Positions 46,422 through 55,003 of a DNA stretch of 64,000 nucleotides are shown here, piece after piece (position 1 is the stretch's first letter; each line of letters opens with the position of its first letter). The stretch lies in NCBI RefSeq assembly GCF_026914285.1, contig NZ_CP113864.1, positions 1,643,001 through 1,707,000 on the forward strand, given 5' to 3'. Under the pieces are notes generated by a model. That model ran no database searches. It saw nothing but the letters and a program-made list of their open reading frames with translations, and was not told the DNA's origin. This DNA is from Caldicellulosiruptor naganoensis (GTDB lineage Bacteria > Bacillota > Thermoanaerobacteria > Caldicellulosiruptorales > Caldicellulosiruptoraceae). A program made the position numbers and the translations under genes.

Positions 46422-48995
46422 TTATACAACAAAAATTTTAGATCCTTCCATATCTTTTTTTACAACTATTCTCTGGTCAAATGCATCCATCAAGTCCTCA
46501 ATGTGGGTTATTACAAGTATCGTGTCAAATTGGTCTTTGATTTGATTCAAACACTCTATTATATGGTCTTTTCCTTCTTCGTCCTGTGAGCCAAAACCTT
46601 CGTCCAAGATAAGCATTCTAATTGAAGCACCTGCCCTTTTTAAAAGCACCTTTGCAAGAGCTATTCTGATTGCAAAGTTGATTCTGAAAAGCTCACCACC
46701 TGAAAAAAGTTCATAGTTTCTTGTACCGTTTATATCTGAAATCTCTATTTGAAGTGTCTCTATTGTTTTACCAGAAGCTGTCTCCTTTTGGGTTTTAAAG
46801 TCAATTGAAAAAGCACCGTTTGTCAAAAGTTTCAAAAGCCTGTTTGCCTCATCTCTGATAAGTGGCAGGGTGTTGGCAATTATCTCATTTTTTATTCCAT
46901 CAGGACCAGTTATGTCAATGATGATGTCATAAACTTCTATTTCTCTTTTTATGTCCTCCATCTCTTTCTCAAGTGCAATTACCTTTTCCTTTGCTTGTTT
47001 TGCTTGTTCAAGCTTTTGCTCAAAAATGCCTATTTCTTTTAGAACAGAAGTTAAGTCTTCCTGAAGATTTTTGATCTTGCTCTCATAGGTATTTATATTT
47101 GACTGAATTTCCTTGAGGTTTTCTTCTGGCGAATCAGAAACCATCTGCAAAAGCTGTTCGTCTATTTCTTGGATTTTTTTGACAAGCTGTTGAGCTTCAT
47201 TTTGATACTCAAGGAGGTTGTTTTTAAGATTCTCTGCTTTAACTTTGCTTATCTCTATCTCTTTTAAAAGGCGTGAATACACTTCAAGTTCTTTTACTCT
47301 TTTAGAAACACGGCTGTAATTTACCCCATCAAAGTTCAGTCTATTAAGTTCATTTTTCAAATCTTGAAGCTTTTTCTCAAGTTTTGATATCTCATCATCA
47401 CAAAGATTTATCCTCTGTTGGCTTTCTGAAATTGAGTTTCGCAAGTTCTCTATGTTCTTGTTCTTCTGGTCTATCTTTGCTTTTAAGTTTTCAAAAAGCC
47501 CATGAAGTTTCTTTTCTTTTGAACGCAAAGCATCTTCCTGTTTAACTTTTTCTTCGAGTTGTTGATATTCTTTTTTGAGGTTTGATAATTTTGCACTTAG
47601 CACTTCTTTCTTTTCTTTATACTCTTTACCTTGAGTTGCTATTTCTTTTTTAATATGTTCCTTTTCCTCATCACCCTTTATCTCTCGCAGACATACAGGA
47701 CATTTCCCTTTATTTGACTCAATTAATCTGTAACTTGTTGCAAGTTCTTTGAGCTTGCTCTCAAACACCTCTAAAACCTTTTCAATCTTTGTAATCTCTT
47801 CTTTTTTTGTATCTAACTGGCACTTCAGCTTTTTTACTTTTTCAAGCTCTTTTTCAACACTTGAAATTTCCATCTCCAAGTGTTTCAGTTCCTGCTGGTA
47901 TTTAGAAAGTTCCGCAGCCTCATTGGTAATCTTAGTATTATATTCTTCTATAGACTTTTCAAATATCTTTTTTTGTTCTTCTTTGCTGTTTTTCTCTTTT
48001 TCAACAAGTGCTATATTATTTTTAAGTGATATATATGTTTCGTAATCTTTTTGAAGACATTCTAAAGTAGATTTTAGTTGCTCATACTCCTTAGCTTTTG
48101 AAGTTATTTCAGGTTCGTTTTTAAGATCATCTTCTATTTTTAAAAGATCACTTTGCGTATTTTCAATCCTTTTTTTGATCTCATTTAGCTTTTTCACATA
48201 CTCATCCTTCTCTTCCCTTTTCCTTCTGATATCTTTGAGTTTTTGCTCTGTTTGGTACTTCTGATCCACAAGATTATTCAGCTCATTTTTTAGAGTGTCT
48301 AACTCGTTTGCAATCTTTTTTGATTTTTCCTCAAGACCTATAATAGCCCTTTTGATATTCTCTTCTTCAGAAGCAATCTTTATATTTTCTTCATTTTCCT
48401 TGATTTTAATGTCAAGCAATACCTTCTTTTCTTTTCTCTTTTCTTTTGCAAGCTCGTTTATTTGGTCGTATATGCTAAGGTTTAAGATTTTAGCCAAAAT
48501 CTCACGCCTGTCTTCTGGAGAAGACAATAAAAAGTCTTCTGTTCGTTTCTGAGAAAGGTATGCAGAGTGCAAAAACACGTTAAAGTCAATTCCTAAAATC
48601 TTCTCAAGCCTATTTTGTGTCTGGGTGTAGTTTGCCTCAGTAATGGGAATGAGCACATCGTTTTTCTTCATAAAAAGAGAAAGATATTTTTTTCCTCTTC
48701 TGTCAAGTCTTCTAACAACTCTGTATATTACACCATCTATCTCGAACTCAAACTCAACTTGCATGTAATCTTTATGTGCGTTTATATATTCTGTCTCCGA
48801 GATCTTTCCACGTTTGCCAGTTTGAAGCCTTTCAAACTCGCCAAAAAGCGCCCATGCAATCGCCTCTGCAATAGAGGATTTTCCATTGCCGTTTTTACCT
48901 ACAATGCACGCAACTTTTATATTATTAAAATCTATCTGGTTTTGACTTTCTCCATAAGACTTGAAATTCTCAATTTTCAAAAAAAGCGGTCTCAA
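46422..48995 (-). CDS. sbcC: SbcC (Rad50-type) ATPase
   Basis: An 857-residue SMC-like ATPase. Walker A is GKNGNGKSSIAEAIAWAL near residue 34; two long coiled coils flank the zinc-hook motif CPVC near residue 432; the C-terminal head has FSGGELFRINFAIRIAL and Walker B MLILDEGFGSQDEEGKD. With SbcD it opens and trims DNA ends and hairpins. Its start lies 20 bases after sbcD. Confidence 0.95.
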   Translation of the reverse strand: MRPLFLKIENFKSYGESQNQIDFNNIKVACIVGKNGNGKSSIAEAIAWALFGEFERLQTGKRGKISETEYINAHKDYMQVEFEFEIDGVIYRVVRRLDRRGKKYLSLFMKKNDVLIPITEANYTQTQNRLEKILGIDFNVFLHSAYLSQKRTEDFLLSSPEDRREILAKILNLSIYDQINELAKEKRKEKKVLLDIKIKENEENIKIASEEENIKRAIIGLEEKSKKIANELDTLKNELNNLVDQKYQTEQKLKDIRRKREEKDEYVKKLNEIKKRIENTQSDLLKIEDDLKNEPEITSKAKEYEQLKSTLECLQKDYETYISLKNNIALVEKEKNSKEEQKKIFEKSIEEYNTKITNEAAELSKYQQELKHLEMEISSVEKELEKVKKLKCQLDTKKEEITKIEKVLEVFESKLKELATSYRLIESNKGKCPVCLREIKGDEEKEHIKKEIATQGKEYKEKKEVLSAKLSNLKKEYQQLEEKVKQEDALRSKEKKLHGLFENLKAKIDQKNKNIENLRNSISESQQRINLCDDEISKLEKKLQDLKNELNRLNFDGVNYSRVSKRVKELEVYSRLLKEIEISKVKAENLKNNLLEYQNEAQQLVKKIQEIDEQLLQMVSDSPEENLKEIQSNINTYESKIKNLQEDLTSVLKEIGIFEQKLEQAKQAKEKVIALEKEMEDIKREIEVYDIIIDITGPDGIKNEIIANTLPLIRDEANRLLKLLTNGAFSIDFKTQKETASGKTIETLQIEISDINGTRNYELFSGGELFRINFAIRIALAKVLLKRAGASIRMLILDEGFGSQDEEGKDHIIECLNQIKDQFDTILVITHIEDLMDAFDQRIVVKKDMEGSKIFVV

Positions 48996-49015: not shown

Positions 49016-50272
49016 TTAGATTTTTTTCACTTCTTCTAACAAGGCCTTGAAAGTTGTAACAATGTCATTCTTGTTCTTTATATCTTTATACTTTGGACTT
49101 GCAGACAAGAATCTTTCAAACGCAAAAACAGGGTCTGATTTTTCATCAACGTCAGCAATTCTAAAATCCCTTTTGACATCTGTCACTTCTATTTCAATTG
49201 GAGCTAAAATGAAACAGATATCTTTCAAATATTTTTCTACCTTGTTCAAATCAAGCCTTTCTTTTAACAAGCTCTGTGTTTTTATTGTAAGTTTCAAAAT
49301 CGATGCTTTTACATTGCCCGAATTTTCTTCTAAACTCTTTATTTTTCTATCTATTTCTGAAAAGAGTGTTTCATTCACATCACCGTCTGCTTCAAACAAA
49401 TCAATTATAATCTGATAAAATGGTCTGACAAGAACCGGCTGAAATCCAAACCAAAAATTGTTTTTGTCTATTTCAAACACCACAAACCCCTTTTGGTCCT
49501 GTGCTTCTGAAAAGTCTATCCTGTCAGGTGATCCACAGTACACAACTGCTGGGCTTTCAGAGTGCAAAACCTGTGGCTTGTGAATGTGCCCAAGTGCAAC
49601 AAACTTGAGTTTTGGATTCAAAAGTACAGAAAGTGGCACTTTCACATCTTTTCCTATCATAATCATTCTTTCACTGCCAACTTCAGCTTCATTAACTGCA
49701 AAATGTCCTGCCAAGATTGTTGGTATATCATCTTCACAGGAACCTAAAACCTCTGCCAATTTCTCTTCGAAAAAATTGGCTATGTTTTGTTCAAGCTGTT
49801 CAATCTTTTCAGGAATTGTTTTATCTATAAACCTTTCAAGGTAAAGGTATGGCACAGCTATAACCCTTACCTTTTCTCCTTTTATATCAAATACTCTTGT
49901 TTCAAAAAAGCTATCCATTACCACAATATTCTCTTGATCAAATATCTCAAAAACCTTGACTGTATGATGCCTTGCTTCAAATGGATGCATGTCATGATTT
50001 CCAGGTACTATTATTACCAATACCCCTTCTTTTGCAATCTCAACAACCCTTTTGTAAAACATATTTCTCAAGGTAGAGTTTGGCTCCCTGTCTTTGAAAA
50101 TATCACCTGTAATTAGTAAAAGATCTATATTCTCTTTTCTTATATAGTCCAAAATCCTATCAAATGTTCTGAAAAAATCATGGACACGTGAACCAAGCCC
50201 ATCTGGAGTTTCTTTGCTGTATGTTGTCACACCGAAATGAAGGTCTGCTGTGTGAACACCTTTTATAGGCAT
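49016..50272 (-). CDS. sbcD: SbcD (Mre11-type) nuclease
   Basis: A 418-residue metallophosphoesterase-type nuclease. Metal-binding motifs are in order HTADLHFG, ITGDIFKDREPN, VPGNHDMHPFEARHH, LAGHFAVNE and ALGHIHKPQVL. The C-terminal 120 residues provide the SbcC-binding region. Partner of SbcC and likely of the NurA-HerA pair just upstream. Confidence 0.95.
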   Translation of the reverse strand: MPIKGVHTADLHFGVTTYSKETPDGLGSRVHDFFRTFDRILDYIRKENIDLLLITGDIFKDREPNSTLRNMFYKRVVEIAKEGVLVIIVPGNHDMHPFEARHHTVKVFEIFDQENIVVMDSFFETRVFDIKGEKVRVIAVPYLYLERFIDKTIPEKIEQLEQNIANFFEEKLAEVLGSCEDDIPTILAGHFAVNEAEVGSERMIMIGKDVKVPLSVLLNPKLKFVALGHIHKPQVLHSESPAVVYCGSPDRIDFSEAQDQKGFVVFEIDKNNFWFGFQPVLVRPFYQIIIDLFEADGDVNETLFSEIDRKIKSLEENSGNVKASILKLTIKTQSLLKERLDLNKVEKYLKDICFILAPIEIEVTDVKRDFRIADVDEKSDPVFAFERFLSASPKYKDIKNKNDIVTTFKALLEEVKKI

Positions 50273-50296: not shown

Positions 50297-51964
50297 TTAA
50301 TATTCCATCTCTTTCAAAAACTCATCTGCAGCTTCCAGTGTTTTTTTGTAATTTTCTTCAACATCACTCTTTGGAGTGTAGAGGGAAACAAAATCATAAA
50401 AGCTCTGGTCATACCCTTTTGTTTTTATTGCAATTGGCATTGGAACCGCATGACCAATTACAAGTGCCTGTTGCTTTGAATCAAGAGACTCAATGATACC
50501 CCGAAGCTGCTTGCTATTTTTCATGCCGGCAAGCGCACTTGCAATATCTGCCTCATCAGAAAGCGCTAAAATCACCCTTGTGCCTATTTGCGAGGCAATC
50601 TCACTGTCTATCTGCGAGGGGCGTTGGTCTATGCACATAAGACTTACCTTTGCCTTTCTCATCTCTCTTGCTATTGTTCCAAATATTGTCTGTTTTGCAA
50701 CATCTGGTGATAAAAACCTGTGCGCTTCTTCTATGGCAATCACAAGTGGTCTTGGTGCTGGATATTTTTTTCTGTTTGATATGTGTTTTTCATACATCTC
50801 CATGTACTTGTTATATATTCGTCTTGAAAGCACATTTGTGACAAACAGGTAATTAAGTAGCTTGTCTCCCTTGCCAAAGGTTATGTCAACGCTAATTCCT
50901 CTTTGAAGGTAATCTAAGATTATATCGATAGAATTTGTACCCGCGCTTCTGTCATACTTAAGATAAGGAAGTTCTTTTAGTACAGAAAGTTTTCTTATAA
51001 GCGCTAAAAGTGAACTTCTGTTTACAACCGCTTCTACATCTTTAAACTCTTCAGCAAGATCCTCGCCATTTACTAAGATTTCCTGAAGCCAATGTCTTCC
51101 TTGGGCTTCTAACCTGTTTTTGAGCGCAATCATCACTTGTTCAGCTGTTTCATTTAAGTTTAGTTCCTCTGAGATTGACAAGATGTCCTCAACCTCAACA
51201 TCTCTCACATCAATTTCTATAGGAAGGACTCCTGCTCTGGTTGCGCTACTTGGCTCAATAGTCATTATCTGAACTTTATTTCCAAAAAGACTCTTTAACC
51301 CTTTTACTTGATGATTTTCCTCATCAACACTATCCGGGCCATGGTCTGAGTGCGCGTCAAATATCAGCAAAGAAGCTTTGTCAGAAAGAACAATTCCTGC
51401 CATTATAAGCCTTGCAATAAATGACTTTCCTGTACCTGTTCGACCGTAAATACCGCTACTTCTTTCAATAAACCTGTCAATGTCAATACACACCTGTGTA
51501 CTTTCATCCATGTCAAGCACGCTTCCGATTGGGAAAAAGCGCTTTGGGTCTTTTTCAAAACTCCCAAACACATCTTGGATATCATCATATGTTGCCTTTC
51601 TCACACTTGATGCATGAAGAGGAATGTTTCTTATTGGCTGGTTTTTGCCCTCTTGCAGGTCAAATGCAAGCACAGGCTGGGCTTTGAATATTGTGTAAAT
51701 TGAAGTTCCTCTCGTGATTCTGTTTAATAGCGAAAAACTGCTTCCCCTTGGAAGCTCAGCTAACGACTGCTTGTTCATTCCTTCAATGACCATGTCAGTG
51801 AGCATACAGTAGTACTTTTTCTTTTCCGTCTGGCTAACCAAGATACTACCTATCCTTGTATCTTCCACAGCAGAATCATCTTCTACCTTTATTGCAAGCC
51901 CTTCTAAAAATGACCCGCCTATGATTTTGCCAATTCTTTGCTGTTTATAAAAATTTTCTTGCAT
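50297..51964 (-). CDS. herA: HerA-type hexameric DNA translocase
   Basis: A 555-residue HerA/FtsK-fold ATPase. The N-terminal HAS-like barrel (IGKIIGGSFLEGLAIKV, residues 10-100) precedes Walker A GRTGTGKSFIARL near residue 170, Walker B LVIAIEEAHRFL near residue 410, and CIDQRPSQIDSEIASQIGTR, the arginine-finger region. In archaea HerA works with NurA nuclease and Mre11-Rad50 in DNA-end resection. ATG 51964 follows AAAGGGTGGG; GTG 51973 is part of that site. Confidence 0.9.
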   Translation of the reverse strand: MQENFYKQQRIGKIIGGSFLEGLAIKVEDDSAVEDTRIGSILVSQTEKKKYYCMLTDMVIEGMNKQSLAELPRGSSFSLLNRITRGTSIYTIFKAQPVLAFDLQEGKNQPIRNIPLHASSVRKATYDDIQDVFGSFEKDPKRFFPIGSVLDMDESTQVCIDIDRFIERSSGIYGRTGTGKSFIARLIMAGIVLSDKASLLIFDAHSDHGPDSVDEENHQVKGLKSLFGNKVQIMTIEPSSATRAGVLPIEIDVRDVEVEDILSISEELNLNETAEQVMIALKNRLEAQGRHWLQEILVNGEDLAEEFKDVEAVVNRSSLLALIRKLSVLKELPYLKYDRSAGTNSIDIILDYLQRGISVDITFGKGDKLLNYLFVTNVLSRRIYNKYMEMYEKHISNRKKYPAPRPLVIAIEEAHRFLSPDVAKQTIFGTIAREMRKAKVSLMCIDQRPSQIDSEIASQIGTRVILALSDEADIASALAGMKNSKQLRGIIESLDSKQQALVIGHAVPMPIAIKTKGYDQSFYDFVSLYTPKSDVEENYKKTLEAADEFLKEMEY

Positions 51965-51981
51965 TTTTCCCACCCTTTACA

Positions 51982-52566
51982 TCACAGGTTTGTAATTAGA
52001 TTTTCCAGCCTCTCAATAATAGGTGTGAGAAGGTTCAAATCATATTTAAGATATATATTGAGCTCTTTCCCCATATGTTCTATGTACTCATAGTCTCTAT
52101 CTCTTGCAACATAGGCAAAGTAAAGCATCCACGGAATCACTTCAACAATGTCAACATCCTTTGCTTTTATAACAGAGTTTAAAAATAAGCTACTCTGGGT
52201 TGCCAAAAGTATATCCTTTTTGTCCGCAAATTCAACCATTGTGTGGAGCTTTATGCTCCTGTCTGGAAGGGAATTTATGAATTTATCATTTGCTATAAAG
52301 CCAAGGATTATACACTTAAAGTAGCCCTTTAAAATTTGGTCAAGCTGCGGATAAAATTTTTTAAGCTCCTCAGCTGTTTTCCACAAAGCCCGCGGATACC
52401 CTTCTTGTGATATACTTCCTATGTCATACCTCGTAACACACCCTAAAACTCTATAGCTATCAAGGTCAAATTTTATAAATTGCCCAGCTGTTGGAATATT
52501 GTCAAGGTCTCTTGCTTCACATGTAATTTGAGTAAAGGAAATGTCTATTATCTCTCCAACCGCCAT
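51982..52566 (-). CDS. Small barrel-like protein between nurA and herA
   Basis: A 194-residue protein. The first 50 residues (VGEIIDISFTQITCEARDL, then AGQFIKFDLDSYRVLGCVT) look like the HAS barrel found at the start of HerA; the rest is helical (SLFLNSVIKAKDVDIVEVIP). It lies 19 bases after nurA and 9 before herA, so the three are clearly one unit. It may be an adaptor or regulatory subunit of the NurA-HerA complex; this is inference from fold impression and position. Confidence 0.6.
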   Translation of the reverse strand: MAVGEIIDISFTQITCEARDLDNIPTAGQFIKFDLDSYRVLGCVTRYDIGSISQEGYPRALWKTAEELKKFYPQLDQILKGYFKCIILGFIANDKFINSLPDRSIKLHTMVEFADKKDILLATQSSLFLNSVIKAKDVDIVEVIPWMLYFAYVARDRDYEYIEHMGKELNIYLKYDLNLLTPIIERLENLITNL

Positions 52567-52585: not shown

Positions 52586-53758
52586 TTAAACTATTCTTTT
52601 CATTTTATTACTTTTCTTTGCAGAATATGGCAAAATATCTTCTCCGAAATCCACAAGCATATTTTCTATGGCCATTTTGTCATGATATGAGATTGTAGAA
52701 AACTCATGAGCATGTGTTAGTGATATAGGATATCCAAATCCAATCTGGCACTGATGGTATATTGCACCAATGCATTTTTTGAGCCAACTTTGGTCTTTTG
52801 CAACATAGAGCGGTATCTCAATTCTCGCAACCTCATAGCCTGTTTGAAGGTAAACAAAGGCAATATCTGTGTCCTCAAACTCATCAAATGCTCTTCCTAA
52901 GGTGTAAAATACATTAGAGTGCTGACCAGTTTTTAGATGTGAAAATAAAAATACATCTCTTATCCTCTCAACCTTTTCGCAATTTCTTTTCTCATAGCTA
53001 CTGCATTCTTTACAGTCAATCCTCATCTTAGCACAGTTATATATCCTGTAAAGATTAGAAATAATAGAGTTTTTTGGCATTGAGATGAAACCACAAACTG
53101 CAATGTTTTTTTGTTTTGCCAAATTAAATATCTTTTCAAGTTCAGGATTTGCCTTTCTGCCAAAGCGCAAACCTTGCCTGTCTTGTGTCCAGTCAATGAG
53201 ATTACCATCATAGAGTACAAGTCTTAAGCTATCCTTAGGCAAAGAATTTTCAACATACTCTAAGATAGCCATATACTCTTTTGCCTGTCTTTCTCTTGAG
53301 ATTTCTGATGAGTTTTTAATTGCCTGAGCTTCTTTTCTTGAGTAAAGTTCTTCATCAAGGTAAATGTAGCCTTGAGTTTTATAGTTAAAATTGCTATTTT
53401 TACTGTCATAAGTAATTTCCACACAGGCAATGTTCAAAAGATAGTAAGGCTGCGAAATATGCCTGTCAATCTCTGTATTGCTGCCATCGACTGCAAACAC
53501 TTCATAACTTGTCTGAACCTCACAAGGAAAACTTCTCATAAACTCATTGAAATTGCTATAGTATGGAAGGCAAAATAGAATTTCGTTTTTCTCATCCTTC
53601 CTTGGAATTTTAGAAAGTACCTTTTCTATTTTTTTATCATCTAATGAGTACAAAAATTCAGAAACTTCATTAATACTTTCTCTTATCTCTCTTTCCTTTT
53701 CCAGTATTCTACTTTTCTTCTCATTTATCTGCTGAACCAAGTTATGAAAATCTAACAT
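52586..53758 (-). CDS. nurA: NurA-domain nuclease with a four-cysteine cluster
   Basis: A 390-residue protein. NurA active-site features: FAVDGSNTEIDRH (Asp91), an acidic/helix region around residues 154-162, RLVLYDGNLI (Asp184), and LTHAHEFSTI (His349/351). An N-terminal coiled coil spans residues 8-35. Residues 242-260 contain C-X6-C-X2-C-X7-C, a likely zinc or Fe-S site not part of the minimal archaeal NurA as I know it. It is the first gene of the operon and has its own sigma-A promoter. Confidence 0.85.
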   Translation of the reverse strand: MLDFHNLVQQINEKKSRILEKEREIRESINEVSEFLYSLDDKKIEKVLSKIPRKDEKNEILFCLPYYSNFNEFMRSFPCEVQTSYEVFAVDGSNTEIDRHISQPYYLLNIACVEITYDSKNSNFNYKTQGYIYLDEELYSRKEAQAIKNSSEISRERQAKEYMAILEYVENSLPKDSLRLVLYDGNLIDWTQDRQGLRFGRKANPELEKIFNLAKQKNIAVCGFISMPKNSIISNLYRIYNCAKMRIDCKECSSYEKRNCEKVERIRDVFLFSHLKTGQHSNVFYTLGRAFDEFEDTDIAFVYLQTGYEVARIEIPLYVAKDQSWLKKCIGAIYHQCQIGFGYPISLTHAHEFSTISYHDKMAIENMLVDFGEDILPYSAKKSNKMKRIV

Positions 53759-54306: not shown

Positions 54307-54606
54307 TTAAACTCTCCTTTCAAATATTACAATTCCTTCTTTTAAGATTTTATTTTTGAATGTTTCGTTTTCTAATTTCTCAAGTTCAACTAAGTCAACC
54401 TTATAAAGCCCTGCAGCTTCATCCAAATCTAATTTAAAACCAGCTGTTGTTTCACCATCTACTACTATTGCAATGTCAATATCCGAATTTATTTTATAAT
54501 CACCTCTTGCTCTTGAACCAAATAATATAGCCTTTTTTATTGTCCTTTCACTTCTGATGAGCTCCATAATTTTCTCAAATATGACATCTTCAATCCCAAA
54601 TTTCAT
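54307..54606 (-). CDS. MntA-type minimal nucleotidyltransferase
   Basis: A 99-residue nucleotidyltransferase with the motif [18 protein letters not shown] (Gly-Ser then two Asp) and a following [17 protein letters not shown] strand. Such proteins pair with HEPN proteins as type VII toxin-antitoxin sets, in which the transferase modifies the HEPN toxin. It lies 4 bases after its partner. Confidence 0.88.
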
Positions 54607-54610
54607 TTAA

Positions 54611-55003
54611 TCAACTCCTCAATTTTTTTTCAAGTTCCTCAAACAAAGGTAAGTAGTCACTTTTTATTCTCTCAAATATTATTTTGGCAACACATTCATC
54701 ATAGGTGTGGACCGTCAAGTTCCTATCTTCAATCATCCTTAGCCATTTTTCTTGATTTTCAATCAAGCCCACTGAAAATGCTTCTTTGAAAACTGCTCTA
54801 GGCGAAGAAATATTTACTATGCCTTGATATTCCAAATACGCCTTCAATAATTTCCAGGCAAGTTCATAGGTAAATTCAAATCTTTGAATAGCACCGTCAT
54901 ACAAAAGAGGATTATCGCTTCTTTCCGACACCGCTTCTTTCAATCTCAAAAGTGCTTTCTGAAAGTTAGCAAATCTTTCTCTAATTTTTTCCAAATCATT
55001 CAT
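54611..55003 (-). CDS. HI0074/HepT-like HEPN protein
   Basis: A 130-residue helical protein of the nucleotidyltransferase-substrate-binding family. FANFQKALLRLKEAVSE, IQRFEFTYELAWKLLKAYLE and MIEDRNLTVHTYDE are typical; the last holds an R-X4-H motif like that of HEPN ribonucleases. Probably the toxin or substrate of the adjacent MntA-type enzyme. Confidence 0.87.
   Translation of the reverse strand: MNDLEKIRERFANFQKALLRLKEAVSERSDNPLLYDGAIQRFEFTYELAWKLLKAYLEYQGIVNISSPRAVFKEAFSVGLIENQEKWLRMIEDRNLTVHTYDECVAKIIFERIKSDYLPLFEELEKKLRS

Follow-up and report, generated by a model that had tools for sequence, protein, structure and literature searches.

The NurA-family nuclease encoded in the window (the whole stretch of 64,000 nucleotides that was analysed, from the heat-loving anaerobe Caldicellulosiruptor naganoensis) carries, as in many other bacteria, four cysteines in one short loop, which very likely binds a metal, as judged from the way the cysteines are kept among homologues. 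We put at about even the chance that this widespread bacterial NurA subfamily is an iron-sulfur nuclease, in which an RNase H-like fold would have acquired, independently, a local [4Fe-4S] loop resembling that of endonuclease III. Such a nuclease would work alongside HerA and a HAS-barrel protein of the stand-alone kind, and the loop would have been lost repeatedly.

The window protein is a NurA member by both profile and fold. Among the open reading frames of the window, its gene is followed on the 3' side and on the same strand by those of a 194-aa protein, HerA, Mre11 and Rad50, and these five genes on one strand therefore make up a complete DNA-end-resection gene set:

52586..53758, minus strand: NurA-family nuclease, 390 aa (PF09376 at 56 bits, cut-off 21; best Foldseek matches are NurA structures; catalytic-type D91, D184 and H351)
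51982..52566, minus strand: stand-alone HAS-barrel-type protein, 194 aa, between NurA and HerA (PF09378 in 9 of 17 aligned homologues, best 2.2e-9)
50297..51973, minus strand: HerA-type hexameric translocase (PF01935, 125.8 bits)
49016..50272, minus strand: Mre11/SbcD-type nuclease (PF00149, 60.3 bits)
46422..48995, minus strand: Rad50/SbcC-type ATPase with a CPVC hook (PF13476, 86.8 bits; PF04423 Rad50_zn_hook at 21.1 bits, under the cut-off of 24.3)

A nuclease activity together with HerA is predicted purely from the gene linkage with HerA, Mre11 and Rad50. The protein shares PF09376 and the RNase H-like fold with the NurAs of the known NurA-HerA complexes (Sulfolobus, Pyrococcus, Thermotoga TM1739 and Deinococcus), as well as clustering with HerA, Mre11 and Rad50. 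However, it belongs to a long subfamily (~390 aa) with a four-cysteine insertion, whereas the short bacterial and the haloarchaeal NurAs are without this insertion. The AlphaFold2 model was RNase H-like (pLDDT 87.6), and its best solved matches in Foldseek were all NurA (7f6d_G, 5.8e-8; 3taz_B, 3.1e-7; 1zup_B, 4.9e-6), with a whole-chain TM of only 0.34-0.46. A sequence search of the PDB with the window NurA, with the alignment of its relatives described below (A2) and with the short bacterial NurAs (A3) returned no NurA match.

Translation of 52586-53758 (minus strand) gave C242-x6-C249-x2-C252-x7-C260 between D184 and H351, which is the arrangement that the sequence-only reading had described at residues 242-260, between Asp184 and a C-terminal histidine. 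The counts beside the codons refer to 65 homologues, which were selected for having at least four cysteines in the loop:

52979..53035, minus strand: four-cysteine loop, NurA residues 242-260, CAKMRIDCKECSSYEKRNC (from the translation; conserved in homologues)
53033..53035, minus strand: Cys242 codon (C in 65/65)
53012..53014, minus strand: Cys249 codon (C in 64/65)
53003..53005, minus strand: Cys252 codon (C in 63/65)
52979..52981, minus strand: Cys260 codon (C in 65/65)

Six of the protein's 10 cysteines lie elsewhere in the chain, a background of 6 Cys in 371 residues, from which about 2e-5 occurrences of the exact spacing would be expected in a protein of this kind. No second C-x6-C-x2-C-x4..13-C was found in the window's open frames with 60 codons or more. 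The motif is not a product of chance, as its conservation makes clear.

For the conservation of the motif, relatives were drawn from 61 related genomes, 398 genomes of the phylum and a named genome collection, together with 251 genomes from the phylum of a Chloroflexota locus and 86 from the phylum of a Dependentiae locus. C242, C249, C252 and C260 were invariant, alongside D91, D184 and H351, both in alignment A1 (12 sequences, down to 29% identity) and in alignment A2 (12 sequences from Bacillota, Chloroflexota and Dependentiae, down to 22% identity). All 12 members of A2 matched the PF09376 profile, and across them the four cysteines are conserved as strictly as the catalytic aspartates and histidine. 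When 48 sequences were aligned, C242 and C260 remained invariant and C249 and C252 were present in at least 90%, some rows having C-x3-C and not C-x2-C. The 65 four-Cys homologues kept D184 in every case, D91 in 64 (one gap) and H351 in 60 (D in the other 5). Lack of conservation in orthologues, the objection that the sequence-only reading had raised against its own metal site, thus fails in A1, in A2 and in the 65 four-Cys homologues. The spacing is variable: some Chloroflexota have C-x6-C-x3-C and others C-x13-C-x2-C-x9-C-x2-C. The latter is a longer, five-Cys form of varying exact spacing, found in one Chloroflexota clade (L114, L116, L117, L121, L124, L127, L128 and L130-L134).

The four-Cys site had been suspected to lie outside the common NurA core, and this was borne out by a profile comparison of A2 with A3, in which both flanks align and most of the four-Cys segment faces a gap, so that it is an insertion relative to the short bacterial NurAs. 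In haloarchaeal plasmid relatives (E 3e-8 and 3e-7), the sequence around the segment is present but the segment is without cysteine. Among the NurA loci of Bacillota, the four cysteines are found in those matching the A2 profile, and the short loci have neither the match nor the cysteines; one weak A2-profile match (2e-4) was also without cysteines, and for one row the reading began at a wrong start. In the model, helix 235-241 precedes C242, and a short helical turn is seen at C249-C252. Confidence within the loop was only moderate, with pLDDT of 83, 80 and 86 in three blocks from residue 241 in the 12-sequence model. With a deeper alignment (48 sequences) the overall pLDDT was 89.5 and the loop blocks had 83, 67 and 83, the block 251-260 falling from 80 to 67 owing to the variable length of the loop.

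Cysteines outside the loop are rare in the family (0.88% of residues in 101 distinct homologues). That four thiolates are retained together, within a local insertion and in otherwise cysteine-poor proteins, indicates a metal. We suggest that residues 242-260 are a compact loop in which four thiolates bind a metal. In the RNase H-like NurA fold, strand 219-226 is followed by a helix and then by this loop, which is present in one bacterial NurA subfamily. This loop would most likely hold a [4Fe-4S] cluster, like the local cluster loop of endonuclease III and MutY, and its role would be structural, pinning an otherwise floppy connection from the catalytic sheet to the next element and taking no part in catalysis. 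Taken as a whole, this explanation seems to us somewhat on the probable side.

The nearest analogue of the loop is found in the same genome, where endonuclease III reads C-x6-C-x2-C-x5-C (CKARKPNCSQCIINNVC). The same spacing is formed by the mapped [4Fe-4S] ligands of Deinococcus radiodurans EndoIII2, C199, C206, C209 and C215 (PMC9268735). Both the NurA motif and the endonuclease III/MutY loop (PF10576) are local loops with C-x6-C-x2-C followed by a fourth cysteine, but the last spacing is x7 in the window NurA (x4-11 in other NurAs) and x5 in endonuclease III. The PF10576 profile had no match in NurA, and a scan of the own genome with it found endonuclease III only. As the folds of endonuclease III and NurA differ, the likeness of the two loops could at most be convergent; the NurA loop is not a member of the PF10576 family by this comparison but may work alike. 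Since NurA and the cluster loop of endonuclease III have the x6 and x2 intervals in common, [4Fe-4S] is favoured over zinc, although not proven, and if a metal is bound we consider iron-sulfur the reasonably likely choice on this analogy.

Another possibility, credible but rather unlikely, is that a single structural zinc ion sits on the four thiolates as a clip similar to a zinc knuckle, with no iron-sulfur chemistry at all. Four cysteines including one CxxC would suffice for this, and there is a precedent for zinc replacing the iron-sulfur cluster in an AddB/Cas4-like nuclease (PMC3466216). Searched against Pfam, the loop profile did not match any known metal-site family, and in the PDB it had no significant match; the best chance matches there (E 0.26-1.8) included the zinc knuckles of MsrB2, RPB9 and NADH pyrophosphatase. 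In addition, many carriers of the four-Cys site encode a heme-copper oxidase; the site is therefore not confined to anaerobes, and its retention in such genomes would suit zinc. Zinc ribbons typically use two CxxC knuckles. However, NurA has one CxxC (or CxxxC), flanked by lone cysteines at x6 and at x4-11, as in the cluster loop of endonuclease III.

The sequence-only reading had looked instead to AddB and Dna2 for comparison. Like NurA, the iron-staple nucleases AddB, Dna2, Cas4 and Bad are end-resection nucleases with four conserved cysteines, and their cluster is mainly structural, as in known iron-sulfur nucleases generally (PMC7311471, PMC3466216, PMC7430649). However, in the AddB/Dna2 type the cysteines span the whole nuclease domain, with one N-terminal and three C-terminal (PMC3466216, PMC7430649), and this domain is RecB-type, whereas NurA is RNase H-like with its cysteines within 19 residues. 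A RecB-type (PD-(D/E)xK) nuclease domain was not found in NurA, PF09376 being the sole Pfam match and the best structural matches being RNase H-like. Membership in the domain-spanning iron-staple group (AddB/Dna2/Cas4) is ruled out by this fold and by the position of all four cysteines within residues 242-260, and the analogy gives way to the endonuclease III loop. The suggestion that the metal site could fasten the nuclease domain is retained in part: a local fastening is plausible, and a span across the domain is not found.

The presence of the site is strongly bimodal. In the segment between the flanking helix and D268, which was counted as the loop, at least four cysteines were found in 66 of the 101 homologues (four in 48, five in 17 and six in 1), none in 33 and an intermediate number (1-3) in 2, and the mean loop length was 29.8 residues with four cysteines and 18.0 without. 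A tree built without the loop columns required at least four changes of state, three of them on well supported branches, compared with 27.8 for shuffled labels. With at least three to four changes on a loop-free tree, there have been several losses or gains of the site, each time as a unit. Loss of the cysteines accompanies shortening of the loop while the catalytic residues stay, the Cys-less relatives retaining the catalytic-type residues D91, D184, R312, E314, K381 and K385. Given this persistence, catalysis as such does not require the four-Cys site, and a structural role is the most likely one for the predicted metal site. In some of the Cys-less rows (for example L140, L142 and L162-L169), neither the catalytic-type residues nor the HAS-barrel gene on the downstream side has been lost, so that these are working relatives and not decayed genes. 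A deep Cys-less clade of Chloroflexota (L177-L192) has D for H351, E for Q336 and other downstream genes, and is probably a separate NurA subfamily.

Intermediate states are common in Dependentiae. In a deliberately uneven sample of 40 loci from this phylum, nine had four cysteines (8 in the usual arrangement), eight had two, seven had one and 16 had none; L198 appears among the Cys-less ones only through a wrong start choice, as the same locus (L059) has the four-Cys motif. The one- and two-Cys forms lie largely within a clade that is without the second half of the loop. Loci L203-L213 form a natural decay series in which the site is half lost and often reduced to C-x6-C or to one cysteine, L206 being the exception with four. 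A strict all-or-none rule is ruled out by these remnants, and from the pattern across homologues the four-Cys site behaves as one unit that decays once it is broken. The persistence of two-Cys remnants in one Dependentiae clade could also be expected if the cysteines formed disulfides or belonged to a lineage-specific conserved surface without metal. We regard this as very improbable, as two disulfides would be unlikely in a cytoplasmic DNA-repair protein, the genus of the window being an obligate anaerobe, and the four cysteines are kept as a set across phyla, whereas the two-Cys forms belong to a clade without the rest of the loop.

An active role for an iron-sulfur cluster, which would sense oxidation or take part in DNA-mediated charge transport and switch end resection on or off, was also considered. 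Such roles have been proposed for endonuclease III and MutY (PMC9266487), and the heme-copper oxidase PF00115, used as a proxy for aerobic life and meant to separate iron-sulfur from zinc, was present in 27/46 genomes with four-Cys NurAs and in 26/31 with Cys-less ones (raw counts, Fisher p 0.025). However, this association rests on only 3-4 independent contrasts, vanishes in independent pairs and is not independent of descent; as a discriminator between iron-sulfur and zinc it was set aside for having too few independent contrasts. Many lineages also do without the site while their nuclease core is intact, and the redox sensitivity of human DNA2 is independent of its cluster (PMC7311471). Redox sensing by the NurA metal site, which the sequence-only reading had offered beside fastening, is therefore unsupported, and there is little probability in it.

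For the 194-aa protein (window 51982-52566, minus strand), no Pfam family was matched by the sequence alone, and the HAS-barrel assignment comes from its aligned homologues. The family is encoded directly downstream of this NurA subfamily in Bacillota and Chloroflexota, and in haloarchaeal plasmids. As the HAS-barrel is the domain through which HerA itself binds NurA (PMC9960219), the 194-aa protein is a possible third subunit in the resection complex of NurA and HerA.

Iron-sulfur clusters in DNA repair are much discussed, and NurA has so far been regarded as an ordinary nuclease with an RNase H-like fold. In the open-access full-text literature, as covered by titles, abstracts and match counts, no paper describing a four-Cys site in NurA was found, which is not proof of novelty; cysteine, zinc and iron are all unmentioned in the NurA-HerA papers on D. 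radiodurans and T. kodakarensis. If the subfamily carries a cluster, a cofactor is missing from the published NurA-HerA work, whose subjects were other NurAs. Matched pairs for asking what the cluster does in a resection nuclease would then be supplied by its repeated loss in nature. Such a comparison is hard in AddB or Dna2, where removal of the cluster destroys the protein or its activity.

NurA relatives were absent from phage records and none was confirmed in viral contigs, and a library of viral structures gave generic RNase H folds only. The nurA of Thermoanaerobacterium saccharolyticum NTOU1 (L023/L024, L058) is seemingly interrupted, its two parts being in different frames and the upstream one containing stop codons. 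A second, longer NurA-like ORF of 468-490 codons with a weak PF09376 match, perhaps a defence-type NurA, occurs in three genomes of the window's genus, at the following locations:

G005:C1:2874255-2875367: second NurA-like ORF
G009:C1:2763629-2764741: second NurA-like ORF
G008:C1:2129224-2129784: second NurA-like ORF

Elsewhere in the window, two adjacent small ORFs of 99 and 130 aa (54307-55003, minus strand), one resembling a minimal nucleotidyltransferase with a GSRARGD motif and the other a helical partner, look by eye like a toxin-antitoxin pair.
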